A stretch of 64,000 bases of DNA from Adineta ricciae (taxonomy: Eukaryota; Rotifera; Eurotatoria; Adinetida; Adinetidae): assembly GCA_905250025.1 (NCBI GenBank), contig CAJNOJ010000070.1, forward strand, positions 335,186-399,185. Reading direction: 5' to 3'. This document shows, one piece after another, positions 4,730 to 51,834 of this stretch (the stretch's first letter is position 1; every line of letters begins with the position of its first letter). The notes below the pieces were generated by a model that ran no database searches, was not told the origin of the DNA, and worked only from the letters and a program-made list of their open reading frames with translations. Position numbers and translations under genes: made by a program.

Positions 4730-7261
4730 CTACTGTAACATATCACGACCCCATTTAATAATAGTTTGAACATCAGGAGTAACTTGAACAATCGTATTTC
4801 TATCTAATCCATATGATTGCCATTGTTTCAAACTAAGTTTTGTTAATGTACCATTGACTATACATGGAAACACGGCATTCATACCAGAGGGAATATAAAT
4901 TTTATTATCAGCTAAGTATGGAACAAATAAATCAGCAGTATCACAGGCACCAATCAGATAAGGTATAGAATCATTGTAAAGTATACAAGTATTATTAATA
5001 AAAACTTCATTCCATCCACTGGAACCACGTTGAGGTGCGTAATCACCGAGACATACGTTACTACCGAACTCACCTTTACTAGCATCTGCATAAACATAAA
5101 TTTCATGATGATCGATTTTCGAATGACCCAAATAGTTTTTCTTTCCACCGTACATCATAAAATTATAACTATCTTCATAGAAACAACTTCCGTCATCGTG
5201 ATCGATTGGCCAAAGAGAATTGTAATTATTGAAAATAGTATTATGATGAATATAACTATAATGTTGCCAAAGTGAAGGTGAACCGTGTTGAACAGCATCA
5301 CTTAAAAATGGTTGTCGATCCCATGAATTAATCGGTCCATGATCACTTGTTTCTCGTACTGTGTTAAACAGGACATTCCAACTGAGAGTATGATTGCCAT
5401 AGTAACCATCATTGATATTAATGGCTGCGCGTGGTACGTTAAATATTAAGTTACCGATCACAGATGTGCTTCGACTAACAGCTATCAATACCGGAGATGA
5501 TTGTTTAATATAAATTCCAGTTTCATGTATAACATTCGATTGTATTAGCACATTAGCAGGTTGACTAGTAACACTAAAACCATCAATACCATTTGTACTG
5601 CCAACGAGTATGATAGCTGAATCGGCTAACCAAACGAATTCATTCAAAGTAATTGATGTCATTTCGTTCGAATCGATTAATGCTACACCATTACTACCTA
5701 ATTGTGTAAATAAATTACGTGTTATGATTACGTCCTTTGTATTTGTGAGATATATTGTACCACCACGATGAACAGACCAATCACCACCGCCTGGTACCAT
5801 GTAATCACTCATATATGTGCTACTTGTTTCTGTAAATATTAGACCTTGGATCAGAATGTTATTAATGGGATTGTTAATACTGCTGCCACTCATCGATATA
5901 AGACAAGGAATTTGACTTGCAACAAAGACACCGGGCATGGTATCGTTCGGCATGAAATAGAGAGTACGAGTATTTTTATCTAAATACCATTCATTCGGCG
6001 AATCGAGTTCTTCTAAAATATTAGATACATAATAAGCACCACCACTATCCATACCGCGTGCTTCTTGGAATCCTCCTCGGCCGAACATGATTGTATTTTC
6101 TGTTCGATTGATCGATTCGATTTCAAATACCCAACTGCCCCAATAACCACCATGAAAAGCATGAACGAAGCCCGTAGTCGGATTGCTCCAATTTTCTAGA
6201 CGAGGTAGGGTTTCGTTAGGTAGTGTAAAACCGCGAGGTGTACGATAATTATCACCAGCTGCCGGCTGAAATCCACTCCAGAAGTTAGTCGGCGGATTAA
6301 ATACTGAAGCACCACCACCAATACCAAGTTGATAATAAGGAAAAACTGTTCCATTACGATAGGGTTCCTGAATAAGTACTTGTACACTTGGATTGTAAGT
6401 TGATGGCAACCATTTTTGTACATCGAAAGCAAATCCTGGAGTCTTCGCATATAAACCTTGAGTAGAAGGATCACCGTTTGGATATTTAGCAATAATTGCT
6501 CGTTTTCCATCGATATATAATTCATTGAATAGGTCAAGTCTAACGTCCGATGGTATTTGAGCTTGCATAATTGTACCGTTATTTCCGAGTGTTCTATAAG
6601 CAGACCAATGCAAATCTAACGGCCAACCACCACTCAATACCACACGTTCATCTTGATAATTTTCAATGACTAGATTATCATCATTCACAGTTAATGCAAT
6701 AGCACCTATTTGACTGCTCGTCGTTGTTGCACTCATACCGAGATAATAAATTCCTTCACGTATAACGATGCATAAGAGTGAATCTTTACTGTACAGACGT
6801 CTTAATGAACGGCTCATTGAGATTGCTGCGGGAATAGTCTTTAATGGCTTATCGAATGTTCCATTGTATGAATCATGACCTAAGGAACCATGTACAAATA
6901 TCCGATACTGACAATTGCTCTTTTGTCTTTCTGGTGTCACTTGAAATGATCGATCAGTATCATGCATTGCCGTCGTTATATTACATTCGTCCATTTGAAA
7001 AGCATCTCTACTAAGTTTTATCCATTTCTCTTTCCAAAATGAAGGTGCAATATAACCTGCCATTTCAATGGTAAAAGATCGTAACGCACAATCGTTCGTC
7101 ACATTAACGACAGGATTATTGACATTACCATTGCGAAGATCAGATACAAGCGTAGCTGATGAGATGAAATCCTTTTCCGCACAAGAATCATCACCATAGT
7201 ACACGTACATCAACAATATTATCACAATAAGACTACAGAATGTATATACCATACGTGTCAT
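4730..7261 (-). CDS. secreted right-handed parallel beta-helix protein
   Basis: An 843-residue single-exon protein that opens with a hydrophobic N-terminus (about residues 5-22), read as a signal peptide or signal anchor. From about residue 120 it has the sequence pattern seen at the start of many extracellular beta-helix proteins: HGSLGHDSYNGTFDKPLKTI, then a VLSGG-type turn near residue 210. Several Pbh1-like coils rich in Asn, Ile and Val follow between about 470 and 650 (for example VIITRNLFTQLGSNGVAL). Proteins of this fold bind or cleave polysaccharides (pectate-lyase-like or GH141-like), but I cannot place a catalytic residue. Many N-glycosylation sequons (NxS/T) fit secretion. The lack of introns in 2.5 kb, among neighbours that mostly have them, is unusual. 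The start is the first ATG, and the stop lies before an AT-rich 3' flank. Confidence 0.72.
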   Translation of the reverse strand: MTRMVYTFCSLIVIILLMYVYYGDDSCAEKDFISSATLVSDLRNGNVNNPVVNVTNDCALRSFTIEMAGYIAPSFWKEKWIKLSRDAFQMDECNITTAMHDTDRSFQVTPERQKSNCQYRIFVHGSLGHDSYNGTFDKPLKTIPAAISMSRSLRRLYSKDSLLCIVIREGIYYLGMSATTTSSQIGAIALTVNDDNLVIENYQDERVVLSGGWPLDLHWSAYRTLGNNGTIMQAQIPSDVRLDLFNELYIDGKRAIIAKYPNGDPSTQGLYAKTPGFAFDVQKWLPSTYNPSVQVLIQEPYRNGTVFPYYQLGIGGGASVFNPPTNFWSGFQPAAGDNYRTPRGFTLPNETLPRLENWSNPTTGFVHAFHGGYWGSWVFEIESINRTENTIMFGRGGFQEARGMDSGGAYYVSNILEELDSPNEWYLDKNTRTLYFMPNDTMPGVFVASQIPCLISMSGSSINNPINNILIQGLIFTETSSTYMSDYMVPGGGDWSVHRGGTIYLTNTKDVIITRNLFTQLGSNGVALIDSNEMTSITLNEFVWLADSAIILVGSTNGIDGFSVTSQPANVLIQSNVIHETGIYIKQSSPVLIAVSRSTSVIGNLIFNVPRAAININDGYYGNHTLSWNVLFNTVRETSDHGPINSWDRQPFLSDAVQHGSPSLWQHYSYIHHNTIFNNYNSLWPIDHDDGSCFYEDSYNFMMYGGKKNYLGHSKIDHHEIYVYADASKGEFGSNVCLGDYAPQRGSSGWNEVFINNTCILYNDSIPYLIGACDTADLFVPYLADNKIYIPSGMNAVFPCIVNGTLTKLSLKQWQSYGLDRNTIVQVTPDVQTIIKWGRDMLQ

Positions 7262-7956
7262 CTGAATGAAACATGATGAAGTTATAAAATGACGATTGAT
7301 GATCTTTCATTACTTTCGTTTTTGTTGGATGATCTGGTACGAAAGATAATCTCTCGTTTGTCATAAATGGTTTTTCAACATCAGTCATGTTCGTATGCGA
7401 GGACATTCTAAGAATAAACCTTCATTTTGTTCCTGATACATTGAACTCTTTTACGGGTACCTGAATCTAGATCATCTTTCCATTAGTGACAATAAAGGAT
7501 AATTCGAAAAAGTGCATTCAAATTAGTCACACATCGTACAGATGAAGTAAACAAAGAACAGAATTGTCAAAGAATTAACCAATAACAAAACACGAAAAAC
7601 AAACAGAAGTCGCTTTATATTTTATTTACAATTTACGAATATTTCCATGAACACACTTCGTAGGACACATTATCTCACATCAGAATATGGCGTGCAATTA
7701 CCGGTAGGTTTCATGTTAATTTTTGGTAATCATTCATCTGTATTTGATGATTTCACACGACTGCACCCATTTAGGTGAATATAAGCTGAAAAGTAATGGG
7801 AACTTGATCTAAAATATTCTCTTCAAAGAAGTCCATAACTTAAAGACAATAATTTCACATAAATATTTCTCACTTGTTTATATCTGCGTTTTATTTGAAT
7901 GAGAAAGATTTACTATACATTTTATTTTCAAATCACTACAAAGAGAAGATACTTTG
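7262..7956. other. intergenic, no gene seen
   Basis: Upstream region of the leftward beta-helix gene and 3' flank of the leftward nuclear receptor. No ORF with protein-like composition was recognised. Confidence 0.5.
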
Positions 7957-9261
7957 TTAACCGGATATAGTCAGAATATCTTCCGTTTTTTGCACAAATG
8001 AATCGATCATATTTGTGAACCATTGTATTCGTTCGATTTCAACCATTGCTTGATTGACTGCAAACACACATCGAATCATGTCCGAAAAACATCGAACAGC
8101 TTGTTCGTAACTATATTTATAGATCAAATATTTCCATGTTAATTCAATATAAATATTTTGTATATTTAACAATTGCTTAACATCTGAGATATTTTCTGTC
8201 GGCGCTTGAGAATAAACGGTATAATGAATAGTTGAGAATGATAAAATTGCTAACATTAATTTCATAACTACGACATCAAAATCCAATCGTGTAGCAATAC
8301 GCTTCGCCGTTGGAATTAAACTTGGATGTGTGATGATTTCTAATGAATTATAATATGCGGCGCTGTTCATCAAGCCAATTTTATACATAATGAAATTTGA
8401 AGATACACTAGCTGTATATGGGGTTGTTGAATGAAGTAAAGACGATCGATCTTCGAGTGATAGAGTAAGAAAATCTTGATTATTTTTATACAACAATTGA
8501 GCTCCTTCAAACACCGAATTGATAAAGGCTAACATAGGCGCTGTTTTGAAACGTAATTTAAGTGGTAGAGATTCTTGTTCGGTCATGTAATACTTTCCTT
8601 TCATCAATCCACTATGTTCATTATAACAATTCGATACATTTGAAAGAAGATTCCATTCTCTATTGGTTAAGTTTGATAAATCAGCCTGGACAAGATTTAA
8701 CATGTAAGGCTACAAGTCATAAACAGAATATACACTAGCTATTGCTAATAGGAATTTCTTGGGAGAAAATCGCTATCGGAGAAATAATATTTTCTTTTTT
8801 TTTATATAAAATACCTGTTGGTATTTATTTGATTGAATTAGGACGCTTGACTTCTTTTGTCTGATGTCATTCGATGATGATTTGTGTTTGTTGCTTTTTT
8901 TCGGATGTGATGATCGAATCATTTCAACTAACATTCCACGTTGAAAACATTTCATTAATCGACAGTATGAACATTCGAATCGATTGTTTAGATTTGCTTC
9001 ACATTGTTTATCGAATTGACATTTCAAAGCATCCTAGAAAGGAAAAATGAAAACGAATTCAGATGAAAATCGATACACAACTCAGATAAATACTCGTCCT
9101 CGTTCAGCATTTCGTTTGAAGAACATTTTACATGAATTACACGATCGAACTCCAAAGAAAATATAACGCGCGTCTTTTCCACAAACTCGGCATTTATTTG
9201 ATAGTGGAACTATGGCATTTTCTAAGTTTTCGGCATGTTCTACTAAGCATGTACCCAGCAT
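7957..9261 (-). CDS. nuclear hormone receptor (divergent P-box)
   Basis: Three exons (9261-9094, 9033-8815, 8709-7957) join in phase 0 to give 379 residues. The first exon carries zinc finger I (CRVCGKDARYIFFGVRSC followed by NSCKMFF). The second carries finger II with C-x5-C-x9-C-x2-C spacing (CQFDKQCEANLNNRFECSYC) and the RLMKCFQRGM helix. The third is an all-helical ligand-binding domain. The protein should bind DNA in the nucleus as a transcription factor. The P-box reads CNSCK rather than the common CEGCK, so its DNA half-site is probably not standard. The start ATG at 9261 has an in-frame TGA six bases upstream of it. It lies close to a divergently oriented receptor at 10311, which suggests local duplication of the family. 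The ligand is unknown. Confidence 0.88.
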
Positions 9262-45420: not shown

Positions 45421-45769
45421 TAGTGCAATATTGTTAATGATTAAGCTTTCTATTCGTAACCATAAATGTGTCAGATTTCTTCCAGATGTAAAATGGTTAA
45501 TCTTGCCAACATAAGTACTGAAAAGACAAATATGTCCATTGAAAAAACATTTTCAAACAACTGCATCAGTAAACCCCTTCTTTTTCCTGTGCTTTCTTAA
45601 AAAGAAGCCATTACAAACATGCGGTGAAAGACAAATAGTGTAAAAAGAAAGAAAAAAACCTCTTCTCCACACGTTATGTTTATTGCATGTTGGTTTTTTC
45701 CAACACATGGTGTATAAGATAAAATTCTCTCCGTCGTAAAATACAACATTTGAGGAAGAACCTACAACA
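45421..45769. other. intergenic, no gene seen
   Basis: Upstream region of the UBL-PARP-like gene. The leftward frame at 45553-45894 has no protein features and overlaps the next gene. Confidence 0.45.
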
Positions 45770-46726
45770 ATGTGGACAAACTCAACGGAAAACGATGGTG
45801 ATGAATTATTAGCTGCAGCATTATCATCCATCCTAGGCAAAGAAATCGTACCCGAGTCAAGTGTACTCAAGCAGACACAGCGGCACGTTAGCAAAATTTC
45901 ATTACTTAATCAACATGTAGCATCACTAGTTTATGGCAAAGTCGGACGAGATGATAGCAGCACTAATAAGTTGTTATTAACAGTATATGTAACTGTTTTA
46001 GCAACGAAACAGAAATTCTCTTGTGTGATTGAACGTGATGCGAGTGTTGATAAATTAAAACAATGGATCTTTCAAAAGACAAATATTACATGTGATAAAC
46101 AAAATCTTATTCATTGTGGAGAAGAGATGGATGAAGGTCATCTGTTGAGTGAATATAATGTTCAAGATTCAAGTGAAATATCCGTCATTCGTTTAAGAGC
46201 AATGAATGCCAACGATATTTTAATATTGGATTCGAGCACACGAGATTCACACTATGATTATGATTTTACTAATATTGATGATACAGGCAAATCTTTTACT
46301 CGCGCCAACGTACAATATCGTCGACCGTGCGGATGGAGACGTTTTGCAATTCGAGTTTGTGGAAAATATGAAAATGAAATTTGGCTCGGCTGCGATAATA
46401 GGAATGGCGAGTGGCCAGTTTCATATCATGGAACTAAGCATGATGCAGCTATTTCAATTGCTCAAAGTGGTTTTGACTTAAGCAAGCATAAACGATTTCT
46501 CTATGGTCGTGGTGTTTATACGACACCAAATATTGATATAGCAGAAACTTTTGCAACACATTTTACACGCAACGGTCGGAAATTTTGTGTTGTTATACAA
46601 AATCGAATCAATCCAGAAACTGTAGTTAAACTGAGTGCTGATCAGGACGGAGTTGACGACTATTGGATATCGCCCAGCGCTGATGATGTTAGACCATATG
46701 GCTACTGTATAAAGAGTATATCGTAG
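45770..46726 (+). CDS. ubiquitin-like domain fused to PARP-like (Gig2-type) domain
   Basis: A single-exon 318-residue protein. Residues about 65-140 resemble a ubiquitin-like fold (VYVTVLATKQKFSCVIERDA, QNLIHCGEEMDEGHLLSEYN), with the hydrophobic spacing of UBLs. From about residue 210 the sequence WPVSYHGTKHDAAISIAQSG, FLYGRGVYTTPNIDIAETFA and FCVVIQNRINPETVVKL follows the H-G-T / G-x-Y / NAD-fold pattern of PARP-like catalytic domains, as in Gig2-type proteins. Whether it transfers ADP-ribose is open, since the usual catalytic Glu cannot be placed. The protein lacks a signal peptide. Gig2-like proteins are antiviral in fish, but that role cannot be assumed here. Confidence 0.66.
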   Translation: MWTNSTENDGDELLAAALSSILGKEIVPESSVLKQTQRHVSKISLLNQHVASLVYGKVGRDDSSTNKLLLTVYVTVLATKQKFSCVIERDASVDKLKQWIFQKTNITCDKQNLIHCGEEMDEGHLLSEYNVQDSSEISVIRLRAMNANDILILDSSTRDSHYDYDFTNIDDTGKSFTRANVQYRRPCGWRRFAIRVCGKYENEIWLGCDNRNGEWPVSYHGTKHDAAISIAQSGFDLSKHKRFLYGRGVYTTPNIDIAETFATHFTRNGRKFCVVIQNRINPETVVKLSADQDGVDDYWISPSADDVRPYGYCIKSIS

Positions 46727-47085
46727 CATGCTTTTTGGTTGTTGCTTGAATAAATGTTGTTGACAGTGACCTGATGTTGTTACTTCAAAACAGATTTTTA
46801 TTTCGACTGATGAAATATTTTTGTTTGATTTCTACTATCGAAGAGCTTCTGCACCATCCGATCAGATTTCTATTTGTGTTCTTGAAGTGCGTAATTGATA
46901 TGTGAGTAGAAAATATTCGGATATCAAATATCGACTCGTTTTGATCAGAAGTAGAACGACGAAAGTGATTATGTACAAGATTTGCGATGTTGGAGATGAT
47001 CGAATCAATATTGATCGAATGGAGGATCTGGTATAAAAGTGACGAGATGACGTTTTTCGATCAGATTAGCTTTGTATCAGTGTGA
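46727..47085. other. intergenic with promoter of the trypsin-chain gene
   Basis: No gene seen. It contains a good TATA box at 47032-47038, annotated separately. Confidence 0.5.
47032..47038 (+). promoter_or_regulatory. TATA box of the trypsin-chain gene
   Basis: TATAAAA lies 54 bp before the start codon at 47086. This spacing leaves room for a short 5' leader and supports 47086 as the first coding exon. Confidence 0.6.
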
Positions 47086-50000
47086 ATGGAGTGGCGATTA
47101 AAACTGATTTTACTTGTGAATGTTGCATTGTGTTCAGCGATTCGGTACGAATGTGAGAAAAGTAATGTTTCATGTGGATGTGCTTTCAAAAATGTTGAGG
47201 TTGGTGATGATCTCGAAGAAGCAATACCGTACAGTTGGTCGATGATGGTATCAATTCGATATGATTGTCGACAGAATGGAAATTCATCGACACATTGCTG
47301 TGCAGGAACAATTCTTAACGAAAGATATATTTTAACAGCTGCACGTTGTTTTGATCCAGCAGAAAATTCTTCGTTGAGTGCTGAAAATATAACAATTGCT
47401 GCTAACATTCATCGTTTATCGCAAAATTGTCCAACAATTCGAACTGTTGAGCGAACTTTTCTGCATCCAAATTGGTCGGCAACGAACGAAGCGTTACATA
47501 ATATCGCGATACTTCGTCTAGCTGAACCGCTTGATTTCCAAACTGATTTTACTCTCAGCTCAGCTTGTCTTCCATCTCAAATGAATACTTCTGTAGAGAT
47601 GATATCGAATACAAGTTTAGTTGTCGTTGGATGGAGTGTACTCAGCAATACAGAAGAGAATTTACAACAGTTAACTGTTTACCCGATTGATTTTAATGAT
47701 TCGATGTGTTCACGAGCAAGCAATGATCCGAAGTTATCGTTTTGTGCAGGACGATATGGAGGTTTGTTAGTCTTTTCCTTCTCTTCTACATTATAATTGT
47801 TTGATTTTCTTTGAATTTTTCTTAGCTGCATGTTTCCGTAAGTAAGATTCGATACTAGTTGAAATATTTTCATTCATTCATTCTCATTCGTTAGCGGAAG
47901 TCGGCGGCCCTGCATTTCAATGGAGTGGAACGCATTGGGAATTAGTTGGAATTGAGTCGTACGCTTTCGATGGTTGTCCACGTGTCGGTTATAAAGGTCT
48001 TTTTGTACGAGTTGCTGCGTATTTGGATTGGATTGAATCAATTCTAAATATTCATACTGCAATGACATCAACTACACCTGAACCGCCTATCTATAATTAT
48101 GAATGCGATCGCAATATGCCGTGTGGATGTGGTTATACGGACGTTGTTTTTCGACCAACTCGTATTATGGGCGGTGAAGATGCAATTGAACACAGTTGGT
48201 CCATGATTGTTTCGCTTCGTTTCTATGGAAGTCAAGAACATTTCTGTGCTGGAACACTCCTTTCAAGTTCGCATATTCTAACGGCAGCGCACTGTGTCGC
48301 TCAATTTTTATCTTCTCGACCAGTGAATATTAGCATTATTGCTGGTATAACAAATCGATCAGATCCTGAAGCCTATCAGAGAAATATCGATCGTATTCAT
48401 ATACATGAAAATTATACCGATCGACCACATTATCTGAATGATATAGCTATATTACGGATGGATCGTCCATTGTATTTCCTACACAACCCGATTCTGGCAA
48501 AAACGTGCGTAAATCCTAGGAATATATCGATGATGGACATGCATCAGTATCCTAAACCGGGAACGCGTCTTGTAGTTATCGGATGGGGTGCGATGAAACC
48601 GGGAAGTTTCCTTCAGTCTGAATACTTACAACAGATACGTATATCGACTATCGACAATCAAGATCCCATTTGTCAGAAAATAGTCAGTAGTAAGGAACAT
48701 CAATTTTGTGCTGGGTTGTATAACGGCGGAAAAGGTAAATCTCCATTTGAATAGTTTTCATCGATAATTCATATTTATCTTTTTCTTTTGCGTAGATGCT
48801 TGTCTGGGTATGTGTTATATTCTTTCAGCCTATTTCCATCGCGCATACTTGCCGTTTTTCGTTCAGGTGATTCTGGTGGACCAATCTTGCAGTGGACTGG
48901 GCAGTATTGGGAACAGGTGGGCATCATTGGTCACAATTTTCAATGTGGACGACCTGAGTATCCAGGTGTCTATACTCGTCTAGGGCAATATTTACAATGG
49001 ATTGCGAAAATTCTCAATGAAACCAATGAATATTTGGAACCACAATGGCCTCTTCGAACGACGACGACAACGACGACTACTCGTCGTCCCAACACGACCA
49101 CTACTAGACGAACGCGACCACCTACAGCTACATCGAATAGATTTTCTTCATTTTCAGCAATGATTACTGACATACTAAGACGGACGGATTCGTTTACAGC
49201 CCACGTACCATTGGTAACTATGCCTTCGGATATTCCTAGAGCACCAACTGGTTACTTCCATACGTCGAGAATTTTAAATACGATTGCTCCATTGTCACTA
49301 TCACTAACCGTTACTTCACAGATACTACCAGCCAAACTCTCCACTTCTGCTATGTCGATCACAATTCACCCGTTTACTAGCATGACATCAGCAGTAACGA
49401 GAGTAACGTTGGACACATCAAAAATGATAACCGCAACGACCACCAGAACTTCTTATGCACCACATTTCACAGCAGCAATAACTACAAATAGATTACAACC
49501 GACGTATTCTGCGAGAACCGATACAATGATCACTACTAATTTATTTCCATCTCATCTCACAGCAGTAACGTCTATTTTTCGTAACAAAATAACCTATGAA
49601 TGTGATCGAATTCAAAATGAATGTGGATGCTCCTTAGCAAATGTTGTCTTATCCTATGATAATCAACGAACATCACCAATTGATACTACAAACGAAGATG
49701 CCTATCCTTATAGTTGGTCAATGGTAGTCTCTATACGTATAAATAATACAAAGCATATATGTATGGGTACTATCCTATCCGATTCCTTTATTCTGACGAC
49801 TGCTCAATGTGTTAACAATTATCGACAAAATCCGAATAATATCACTATTGCAGGTGGTGTGCATAGTCTTTCACAGTATAGTGCATCGCATCGAACAGTT
49901 GTCGAAATTCATATTCATGAGAATTATACGACTGACAGATCACATTTGCACGACATTGCTATTCTTCGTCTTGGACATCCATTGGATTTGATAACACAAC

Positions 50001-50684
50001 CAATCTTTGCAAAAACATGCCTGTCGAATTCTTTGTCTCCTAATCTAACGGGAGACACGACATTAGTGACGATCGGATGGCAAAATTCAGCTTTTGAAAG
50101 AATTGTACTCGATACACTTCAACAAGTATCGACGAAATCAATGAATGATTCAGATTCATCATGTTTCAATTCAACTTATGACAATAGGTATCAATTGTGT
50201 GCAGGTGCACCATCTGACAAAACAGGTGAGTCAAATTACACGTGTTATTCGATCTAATTATTATTATCTTTATTCAAATTTAGGTACATGCAACGGTTAG
50301 TACATTTATTTTGAAATACTTATCATATCAAGTATTTAAATTCTAGGCAATTTCGGTGAACCGATTTTTGTTTATAGAAATAAATATTGGGAGCAGGTGA
50401 GTATAAGAAACAAGAGAAAATGTATAGAGATCTTTCTTTGATTACATATGTGTTTATATATATAGGTTGGAATGCTTTCTAAAACTCAAAGTTGTACTGT
50501 AATTGGCCATTCCGGTGTCTATACTCGACTTTCCGCATATACAAAGTGGATACAACATCTATTGAAAACTACACCAATACCTTCACGTCGACCAGCGACT
50601 ACTAGTGACAGTTCAAAGATACAACGGAACTTTCTTTCACTGAGCAGTCTTCTCCTCATTACTAAACTTTTTACTCGCAACTAA
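47086..50684 (+). CDS. three-domain trypsin-like protein (polyserase type), only central domain intact
   Basis: Eight exons (47086-47761, 47826-47837, 47895-48734, 48796-48807, 48867-50225, 50284-50295, 50347-50396, 50466-50684) join in phase to 1059 residues. A signal peptide (MEWRLKLILLVNVALCS) precedes three S1 domains, each opened by a Cys-rich CGC-type motif; a long Thr/Ser-rich linker separates domains 2 and 3. Catalytic residues differ. Domain 1 has Arg87 for His, Asn139 for Asp and Val232 for Ser (TAARC, HNIAILRL, PEVGGP). Domain 2 is complete: His362, Asp412, Ser516 (TAAHC, NDIAILRM, GDSGGP). Domain 3 has Gln827 for His, keeps Asp876, and has Phe973 at the Ser position (GNFGEP). So one active protease is flanked by two pseudoproteases. 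Each domain has a 12-bp microexon just before the serine loop. Probably extracellular; the substrate is unknown. Confidence 0.88.
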
Positions 50685-50714: not shown

Positions 50715-51506
50715 TCAACTATTGTATGCTAGTTCTGCAAGAACTGGTAAGTGATCCGATGGATAATAGTTATTGTCGGATTCAGTCAAATGAGCATGTT
50801 TCAATACTTTGAAATGCGATGGAGTAATAAAAATATAATCAATTCGATCACCTATGCCACTAGCTACATGAAACGTACTCCAAGTACCTTGTGGACCCGA
50901 ATGAGATGATTCGGATAATAACTTAGCGTCTTTGAGCACGTCTGTCGATAGAATTGTGTGGTAGGCATCGGATTGAGGCCCTGTATTGAAGTCACCAGTT
51001 AATATTGAAGGTATGGTCGATCCAGCGATTTGTTGGATGCGAGTTAGAATGAAACGAGCACTTTCTCGCCGAGCAGTATTTCCTTCATGATCAAAGTGTG
51101 TATTGAAATAGCAAAGTTCCTTGCCGGTTAAACGATCTCTAAGTTTTATCCAACTACAGATACGAGGCAGAGCAGCATCCCAACCTCGGCTACCAGGTGT
51201 GTCTGGCGTTTCCGATAACCAGAAAGTACCTTTGTCAACAAGTTCAAAGCGATCGTGACGATAGAAGACAGCAGAAAACTCGCCACTGTCACGACCATCA
51301 TTTCGACCTACACCATAGGAACCATAATCAGACAAATTACTTTGTAGATCGGACATCTGTTGTGATAGAGCTTCTTGAACACCAAGTAGACCAGGTGCAC
51401 ACTGACGAATTAGATTGACGACACGATCTTTACGTCGGTGCCATTGATTTGGACCATCTGCTGGTGTATCCATACGGATATTGTAAGTCATTACACCGAA
51501 CGACAT
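50715..51506 (-). CDS. bacterial-type endonuclease/exonuclease/phosphatase (EEP) protein
   Basis: A single-exon 263-residue EEP-fold enzyme with all metal-site motifs: VMTYNIRMDTP, LLGVQEALSQQ (catalytic Glu), CYFNTHFDHEGNTARRESA, SILTGDFNTGP, DRIDYIFI and PSDHLPVLAEL. The stretch FWLSETPDTPGSRGWDAALP is a hallmark of a bacterial subfamily common in Bacteroidetes and Planctomycetes; I know of no animal family with it. Function there is unproven but likely phosphodiester hydrolysis. There is no signal peptide. It differs clearly from the CCR4-like EEP pair at 15889-18212. No intron and a bacterial-type sequence suggest horizontal transfer, while the flanking genes are ordinary animal genes with introns. 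It converges with the trypsin-chain gene. Confidence 0.85.
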   Translation of the reverse strand: MSFGVMTYNIRMDTPADGPNQWHRRKDRVVNLIRQCAPGLLGVQEALSQQMSDLQSNLSDYGSYGVGRNDGRDSGEFSAVFYRHDRFELVDKGTFWLSETPDTPGSRGWDAALPRICSWIKLRDRLTGKELCYFNTHFDHEGNTARRESARFILTRIQQIAGSTIPSILTGDFNTGPQSDAYHTILSTDVLKDAKLLSESSHSGPQGTWSTFHVASGIGDRIDYIFITPSHFKVLKHAHLTESDNNYYPSDHLPVLAELAYNS

Positions 51507-51834
51507 GATGTTTTATAAAGATATAATGTAATTGTCGGCTATCTGAATTGTGTCAAAGTAAATCGAGAATGACTGCTTTCGTCTTGTGCAACTCAATACA
51601 CTAAAAAACCTTATTAGTCAAAAATTGAATCACTAAATGCACTCTGCCCCAAATATTTGGAAGAACCTACCGACATCTACATTTATCAGTTACCTACTAC
51701 ACGATAAATAATGTTACAGTAGTAGTGATTGAAGCAAAACGTATTCGTATTTATGTAAATTTATTACAAAGAATCGTCAAAAAAAGAGCATTCGATTGCA
51801 CATTATTAGATGTTCATGTTTCAGTTCGATCGGT
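51507..51834. other. intergenic, no gene seen
   Basis: Promoter side of the leftward EEP gene and 3' flank of the leftward cathepsin gene. Confidence 0.45.

Follow-up and report, generated by a model that had tools for sequence, protein, structure and literature searches.

The window analyzed here is a 64,000-nucleotide stretch of the genome of the bdelloid rotifer Adineta ricciae, and its forward strand carries a trypsin gene (positions 47086–50684, on contig C70) that we model with eight exons of 676, 12, 840, 12, 1359, 12, 50, and 219 bases. All introns are of the GT-AG type and 51–69 bases long, and the spliced frame of 3180 nt encodes 1059 amino acids with no internal stop, in agreement with the eight exons put forward by a prior sequence-only reading of the locus. 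A candidate TATA-like box, found by motif match (TATAAA, 47032–47037), is 54 bases 5′ of the start codon, and the hydrophobic N-terminus of the translation, judged by eye, provides a putative signal peptide of residues 1–18 (47086–47139). On the 5′ side of the gene an open frame (45740–46723) contains a ubiquitin-like domain (PF00240, 1.2e-10); the part past this domain looks ADP-ribosyltransferase-like by eye, and Pfam reported none. On the other side, a single open frame on the minus strand (50718–51512) encodes an Exo_endo_phos protein (PF03372, 4e-23) that is convergent with the trypsin gene, the two stop codons being 30 bases apart, and beyond it a papain-family cysteine protease (PF00112; 51838–52659, minus strand) is spread over two open frames, so that this gene has at least two exons.

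The genome was also searched with a 23-mer that we take to be the bdelloid spliced leader. It has 41 matches, each with the same single mismatch, and none in a reversed control, which supports a rotifer source; 28 of them form 14 divergent pairs that are 151–154 bases apart and located on contigs C6, C8, C43, C77, and C99. A trans-spliced leader of 23 bases is reported for bdelloids, and a monogonont rotifer showed none (PMC1925144).

The trypsin gene encodes three trypsin domains in series. Domain 1 (47140–48049) is contained in exons 47140–47761, 47826–47837, and 47895–48049, domain 2 (48077–49036) in exons 48077–48734, 48796–48807, and 48867–49036, and domain 3 (49589–50573) in exons 49589–50225, 50284–50295, 50347–50396, and 50466–50573. 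Each domain has a 12-base exon at its Cys191 (47826–47837, 48796–48807, and 50284–50295, respectively), and domain 3 has an extra phase-0 intron following Trp-Glu-Gln (50397–50465), at a place common to five other domains of the family described below. Domains 2 and 3 are separated by a Ser/Thr-rich linker with an open frame (49037–49588; 36% S+T over residues 571–757) that contains three dibasic sites and, at 552 bases, is far longer than the corresponding junctions of seven other three-trypsin chains (3–72 bases). Pfam finds the Trypsin family (PF00089) in three stretches of the chain (1.5e-104; 349 bits vs. a curated cut-off of 20.6), and reports only trypsin-type families together with a weak DUF316 match over the linker and domain 3; no LDL module was reported by Pfam in the window chain.

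The chain ends in a C-terminal tail (50574–50681), followed by the stop codon (50682–50684), and the end of the tail is moderately hydrophobic (LSLSSLLLITKLF, mean hydropathy 1.78, taken as the best 13 residues among the last 26). A hydrophobic C-terminal stretch is present in all 12 chains measured (mean hydropathy 1.5–3.2), and that of the window gene is the second lowest. Judging from these tails, anchoring through a lipid or in the membrane is plausible across the family and uncertain for the window gene. We rejected the hydrophobic tail as a hallmark of multi-trypsin chains, as the control finds many such tails in trypsin genes elsewhere in the genome; some of the other trypsin genes end within ten residues past the domain.

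The three domains share exons in a way that bears directly on whether they form one protein. Exon 3 (47895–48734) holds both the end of domain 1 and the start of domain 2, joined by 27 in-frame bases, and exon 5 (48867–50225) holds the end of domain 2 and the start of domain 3, joined by 552 in-frame bases, with no stop in either connection, so the earlier statement that all three domains are in frame stands. Separate mRNAs for each domain are unlikely because the domain borders fall within shared exons. The model was also compared with the output of a spliced aligner written for this analysis, in which single domains of the window model were used as queries. With domain 2 as the query, the aligner recovers the inner exon borders of the model for domains 1 and 3, agreement for domain 2 itself being by construction. 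Domain 1 and domain 3 as queries each find all three domains, the former missing the 12-base exon of domain 3 and the latter that of domain 1, and the domain 3 query gives an extra, weak fourth match in the linker. One chain with three domains is the simplest reading of the predicted gene, and an additional intron within the linker between domains 2 and 3 may be conceivable. As modeled, the gene has the polyserase-like arrangement, that is, two or three S1A domains encoded by one open frame of one gene.

The three domains differ in catalytic state. The complete triad that had been assigned to domain 2 (His362, Asp412, and Ser516) is present in the translated model, and domain 1 indeed has none of the triad residues (R87, N139, and V232), while domain 3 retains only the aspartate (Q827, D876, and F973), as had also been read. 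Domain 2 is the only one in which the His57-Asp102-Ser195 triad, Gly193, Asp194, and an activation site at positions 15–16 occur together. Domains 1 and 3 each retain all 10 cysteine columns of the trypsin fold with 0/3 and 1/3 triad residues, respectively, which is the pattern of serine protease homologues; the 20/20 cysteines against 1/6 triad residues support their proposed status as pseudoproteases. The propeptide-like openings ascribed to all three domains are there in part. Specifically, a Cys...Cys-Gly-Cys opening is found in each of them, but the activation site (R319/I320-M-G-G) is found only in domain 2.

The window gene is one of a family of such chains. A trypsin profile matches 172 places in the 130 Mb genome with 150 of 213 candidates scored, so the trypsin family may be larger, and twenty stretches were fetched and modeled. 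The first spliced models bridged neighboring domains by long introns and were replaced once intron length was penalised. At least seven further three-trypsin chains are present in the genome, giving at least eight with the window gene. Their triads in order are HDS-HDP-QNA (C23A), HNV-GDL-HDS (C23B), NDF-SDP-HDS (C23C and C404A), NDL-SDP-HDS (C404B), and HDS-NDN-RDV (C257A and C257B), where some of the dead readings depend on the alignment (the first domain of C23B, C23B1, is also read as HD-gap, and the serine column of the second C257 domain as N or Y) and are complete in none. All 14 domain junctions of the seven other chains (3–72 bases) are in frame with no stop. Each of the eight chains contains exactly one complete triad, and the complete domain is the first in three chains, the middle one in the window chain, and the last in four. 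Four two-domain sets (C72A, C72B, C139, and C101) are all of the form dead then complete, where the single-chain status of C72A, C72B, and C101 rests on an inferred linker intron and the C139 link is in frame, with poor models for both of its domains (gaps of 280 and 212 bases). The second C139 domain is 36% identical to that of C72A, compared with 66% for C72B and 58% for C101. Two further candidates were set aside: a pair on C8 (complete, dead) is not one chain, as a stop lies six residues past the first domain, and a second place on C139 was not counted, as it has just the final two fifths of one domain, including GDSGGP.

The probability that one live domain per chain arises by chance is 0.009 if the eight chains are independent and 0.08 if related chains are merged to five, and because of this latter value the regularity is suggestive only and is treated here as a hypothesis. 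One could imagine a rule with a movable slot, in which each chain is held at one working protease, activity is passed between slots as domains shuffle, and dead domains persist because a chain requires a single protease along with its partners; we consider this possible but tentative, and on balance would not expect it to hold.

A tree of 42 domains, without vertebrate rows, was used to examine kinship, and the protein searches covered the same genome and the PDB. Domain 2 of the window chain joins the domains that stand last in C23B, C23C, C404A, and C404B (support 100/98), and the triad is complete in all five members of this alpha lineage. The chains that include an alpha domain have a dead first domain, and those that do not (C23A, C257A, and C257B) have a complete first domain. 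Window domain 3 clusters with its third-position counterparts in C23A, C257A, and C257B (92/73, which is not firm), and window domain 1 is placed close to first domains from other chains, again with no firm support (p 0.25 in a one-clade test of the first-domain group). The phase-0 intron after Trp-x-Gln occurs in 6 of 24 domains, namely domain 3 in each of the window chain, C23A, C257A, and C257B, and the first two domains of C23B, where 21 of the 24 domains were surveyed together and the three C404B domains were read from their exon lists, which have no such exon; a one-clade test for the six gives p 0.13. We rejected the idea that the three domains of the window gene arose by a recent triplication within it, as the AU test refuses their constraint to one clade (p 0.008). 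If these groupings hold, the window chain would be a different cut of the same domain lineages: the order would be first-type, alpha, third-type in the window chain, first-type, second-type, alpha in C23C and C404, and first-type, second-type, third-type in C23A and C257. Unequal crossing-over is a plausible source of the different orders, as C23A is in tandem with C23B at a distance of about half a kilobase.

Whether the dead domains are maintained was assessed over 40 columns (10 cysteine and 30 other) that are shared by at least 90% of 19 domains with a complete triad; the triad itself and nine further columns concerned with the active site or activation were set aside. The cysteines, which the domains had been said to keep, are all retained in the two dead domains of the window chain (20/20, 10 columns each), as are 49/60 of the other conserved columns, compared with 1/6 triad residues (Fisher p 9e-5), and the 16 dead domains of the eight chains together retain 142/160 cysteines, 366/480 other columns, and 15/48 triad residues (Fisher p 2e-14); these p values overstate the contrast because a domain is called dead only if it has lost a triad residue, which by itself accounts for the loss of at least two of the six triad residues in the window chain's dead domains. 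The recent pair C257A–C257B gives dN/dS values of 0.20 for the complete domain and 0.21 and 0.22 for the dead ones (dN 0.022, and 0.034 and 0.045, or 0.4–0.8 of the intron rate), and C404A–C404B gives 0.32 for the complete domain and 0.43 and 0.57 for the dead ones (the latter for the dead second domain, with an interval to 1.31), although in such recent pairs exons are barely more similar than introns (94.3% vs. 94.5% identity for C257 and 95.1% vs. 93.8% for C404) and intron divergence is lower than dS, so that the ratios may overstate constraint. The window gene itself has no near copy in a DNA search of the genome, where the best-scoring other match is 71% over 195 bases and another is 82% over 60, and hence no close-pair dN/dS is available for it and the constraint on its dead domains is judged by distant comparisons. 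The dN/dS per domain that the sequence-only reading had suggested as a check is 0.28–0.34 for the window's dead domains against distant relatives (dN 0.51–0.61, dS 1.6–1.8), values that are indicative only.

Based on the domain inventory and the family data, we put forward a mechanism in which the gene encodes a bdelloid polyserase-like secreted protein with three S1A domains, where a candidate protease, domain 2, is located between two conserved pseudoproteases that would serve as binding modules, and we assign this reading a probability of about 0.6. We propose that the chain is made as a zymogen and that a trypsin-like enzyme cuts between R319 and I320, which would activate only domain 2, the other two domains being without an activation site. 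Within each domain, a disulphide would link the Cys-Gly-Cys opening to the Cys122-type cysteine, and domain 1 would therefore stay tethered after the cut at R319, while domain 3 would be suspended from the long linker rich in Ser and Thr. The two dead domains would then act as fixed modules that bind a large substrate, a partner, or an inhibitor, and binding by them would narrow what domain 2 cuts, or where. The regulation of domain 2 by the dead domains, for which the sequence-only reading had suggested positioning or inhibition, is an inference from this arrangement.

The dead domains might instead be the passive remains of tandem duplication, kept in frame only to spare domain 2 or the C-terminal tail. 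Such remains require an open frame and not cysteines or a low pN, and the 20/20 cysteines of the window's dead domains are not what is expected of them. The C23C–C404A comparison is divided on this point, as the dead second domain (pN 0.28, 0.25–0.32; pS 0.76) is about as constrained as the complete third (0.25, 0.21–0.29; pS 0.71), but the dead first domain is looser (0.35, 0.30–0.39), with pS ranging from 0.58 to 0.76 over the domains and both second domains sharing the same dead triad. Dead domains are also looser than complete ones in C72A–C72B (pN 0.33 vs. 0.21) and in C23A–C257A (0.35 and 0.37 vs. 0.31), and pairs involving C139 were left out because its models are poor. In the tree, the end branches of the dead domains 1 and 3 of the window chain (1.14 and 1.26) are longer than that of the complete domain 2 (0.76). 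The two exon indels between C404A and C404B (12 and 3 bases) are both in the dead first domain and both multiples of three, which an open frame alone would explain too. The strongest resemblance to decay is in C23B1 (L016, 4977–5711), with 2/10 cysteines, 15/30 other conserved columns, and no Cys-Gly-Cys opening, and in the third domain of C257B (L018, reverse strand, 7110–7985) one exon is a single base shorter than in its sister, in genes whose exons are 94% identical, so that either one copy has a broken frame or the assembly is in error. The claim that the loss of the triads is not accidental decay is hence supported for the dead domains of the window chain and for constrained dead domains in several paralogous chains, but not for C23B1 and C257B3, and for the window gene we regard passive remains as unlikely.

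A different concern is whether domain 2 is itself a competent protease, as it too might be on the way out, leaving the whole protein as a binding or matrix protein. At positions 214–216, on the substrate strand, where Ser214 and Gly216 are usual in active S1A enzymes and not strictly required, domain 2 has Gly535-His536-Asn537 (exon 48867–49036), and in this it is the sole exception in an alignment of 20 complete-triad domains, as the other 19 all have both residues. Pairwise alignments give Ser-Trp-Gly in TMPRSS11D and Ser-Phe-Gly in enteropeptidase-1 at these positions. Because of this departure from its family, the activity of domain 2 is less certain than its triad implies, and the domain may be slow, narrow in its specificity, or itself failing. 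Complete-triad trypsins outside that alignment also depart, however, with Asn214 in L005 and L006 and Ile216 in L008, and in domain 2 the triad, Gly193, Asp194, Asp510 at position 189, the activation site, 10/10 cysteines, and 29/30 of the other conserved columns are intact. The best solved matches of domain 2 in the PDB protein search are TMPRSS11D, enteropeptidase, and plasma kallikrein, which are active enzymes, and its solved relatives begin at residue 320. We therefore consider the complete absence of a competent protease quite improbable. The dead domains could also be decoys that bind protease inhibitors and thereby shield domain 2, and they do retain the fold cysteines though catalysis is lost. 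Canonical inhibitors use the substrate strand 214–216 and position 189, but in both dead domains the strand (Ser-Tyr-Ala and Ser-Lys-Thr) and position 189 (a gap and Gly) are altered, and a mature binding surface would not be expected to form normally in domains that have no activation site. Decoys therefore seem very unlikely, and a candidate protease flanked by conserved binding modules is the reading that we prefer.

The proposed protein can be compared with human polyserase-2, which we take to be the product of PRSS36, and with human polyserase-1, presumably TMPRSS9. As described in the literature, polyserase-2 is secreted and has three tandem S1A domains of which only the first is active, the two inactive ones being without triad residues and without the Arg-Ile-Val-Gly-Gly motif (PMC1435904). 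The likeness to the window chain is in these same features, three S1A domains on a (predicted) secreted chain with one active and two without triad residues and activation motif, but the active domain is the first in polyserase-2, the middle one (as a candidate) in the window gene, and the first or last in its sister chains. The Cys-Gly-Cys openings and the 12-base exons also set the rotifer chain apart from polyserase-2. The likeness is one of architecture, and we do not claim that the two chain plans share an ancestor. In the same report, polyserase-1 has three tandem S1A domains in one chain with the first two active, together with a type-II membrane anchor, an LDL-receptor module, and domain release by processing (PMC1435904), whereas Pfam reports no LDL module in the window chain. 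In polyserase-2 and -3 the domains remain in one polypeptide after processing. The insect polypeptidases (Tenebrio pSerP, Anopheles SP(H)-SPH-clipE-SPH, and Nudel) also combine active and inactive S1A domains in a chain, and seven are reported for Tenebrio, four of them active-then-dead, with the dead domains proposed as binding modulators of the active one (PMC11172050). These chains carry Sushi, LDL, or clip modules (PMC11172050), unlike the window chain with its trypsin-type matches and the weak DUF316 match. By architecture, the window gene may work like polyserase-2 and the insect SP-SPH polypeptidases.

Our literature search, judged by titles and the start of abstracts, found no report of a tandem protease or polyserase in a rotifer. 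The kind of gene is known already from vertebrates and insects and is seen here in another lineage, and what is new is the series of at least eight chains with one complete site each, in three positions. Eight chains in one genome, with three live positions and two recent duplicate pairs, form a natural series for comparing chains, and this series allows one to ask whether selection holds each chain at a single active site and what role its dead domains play.
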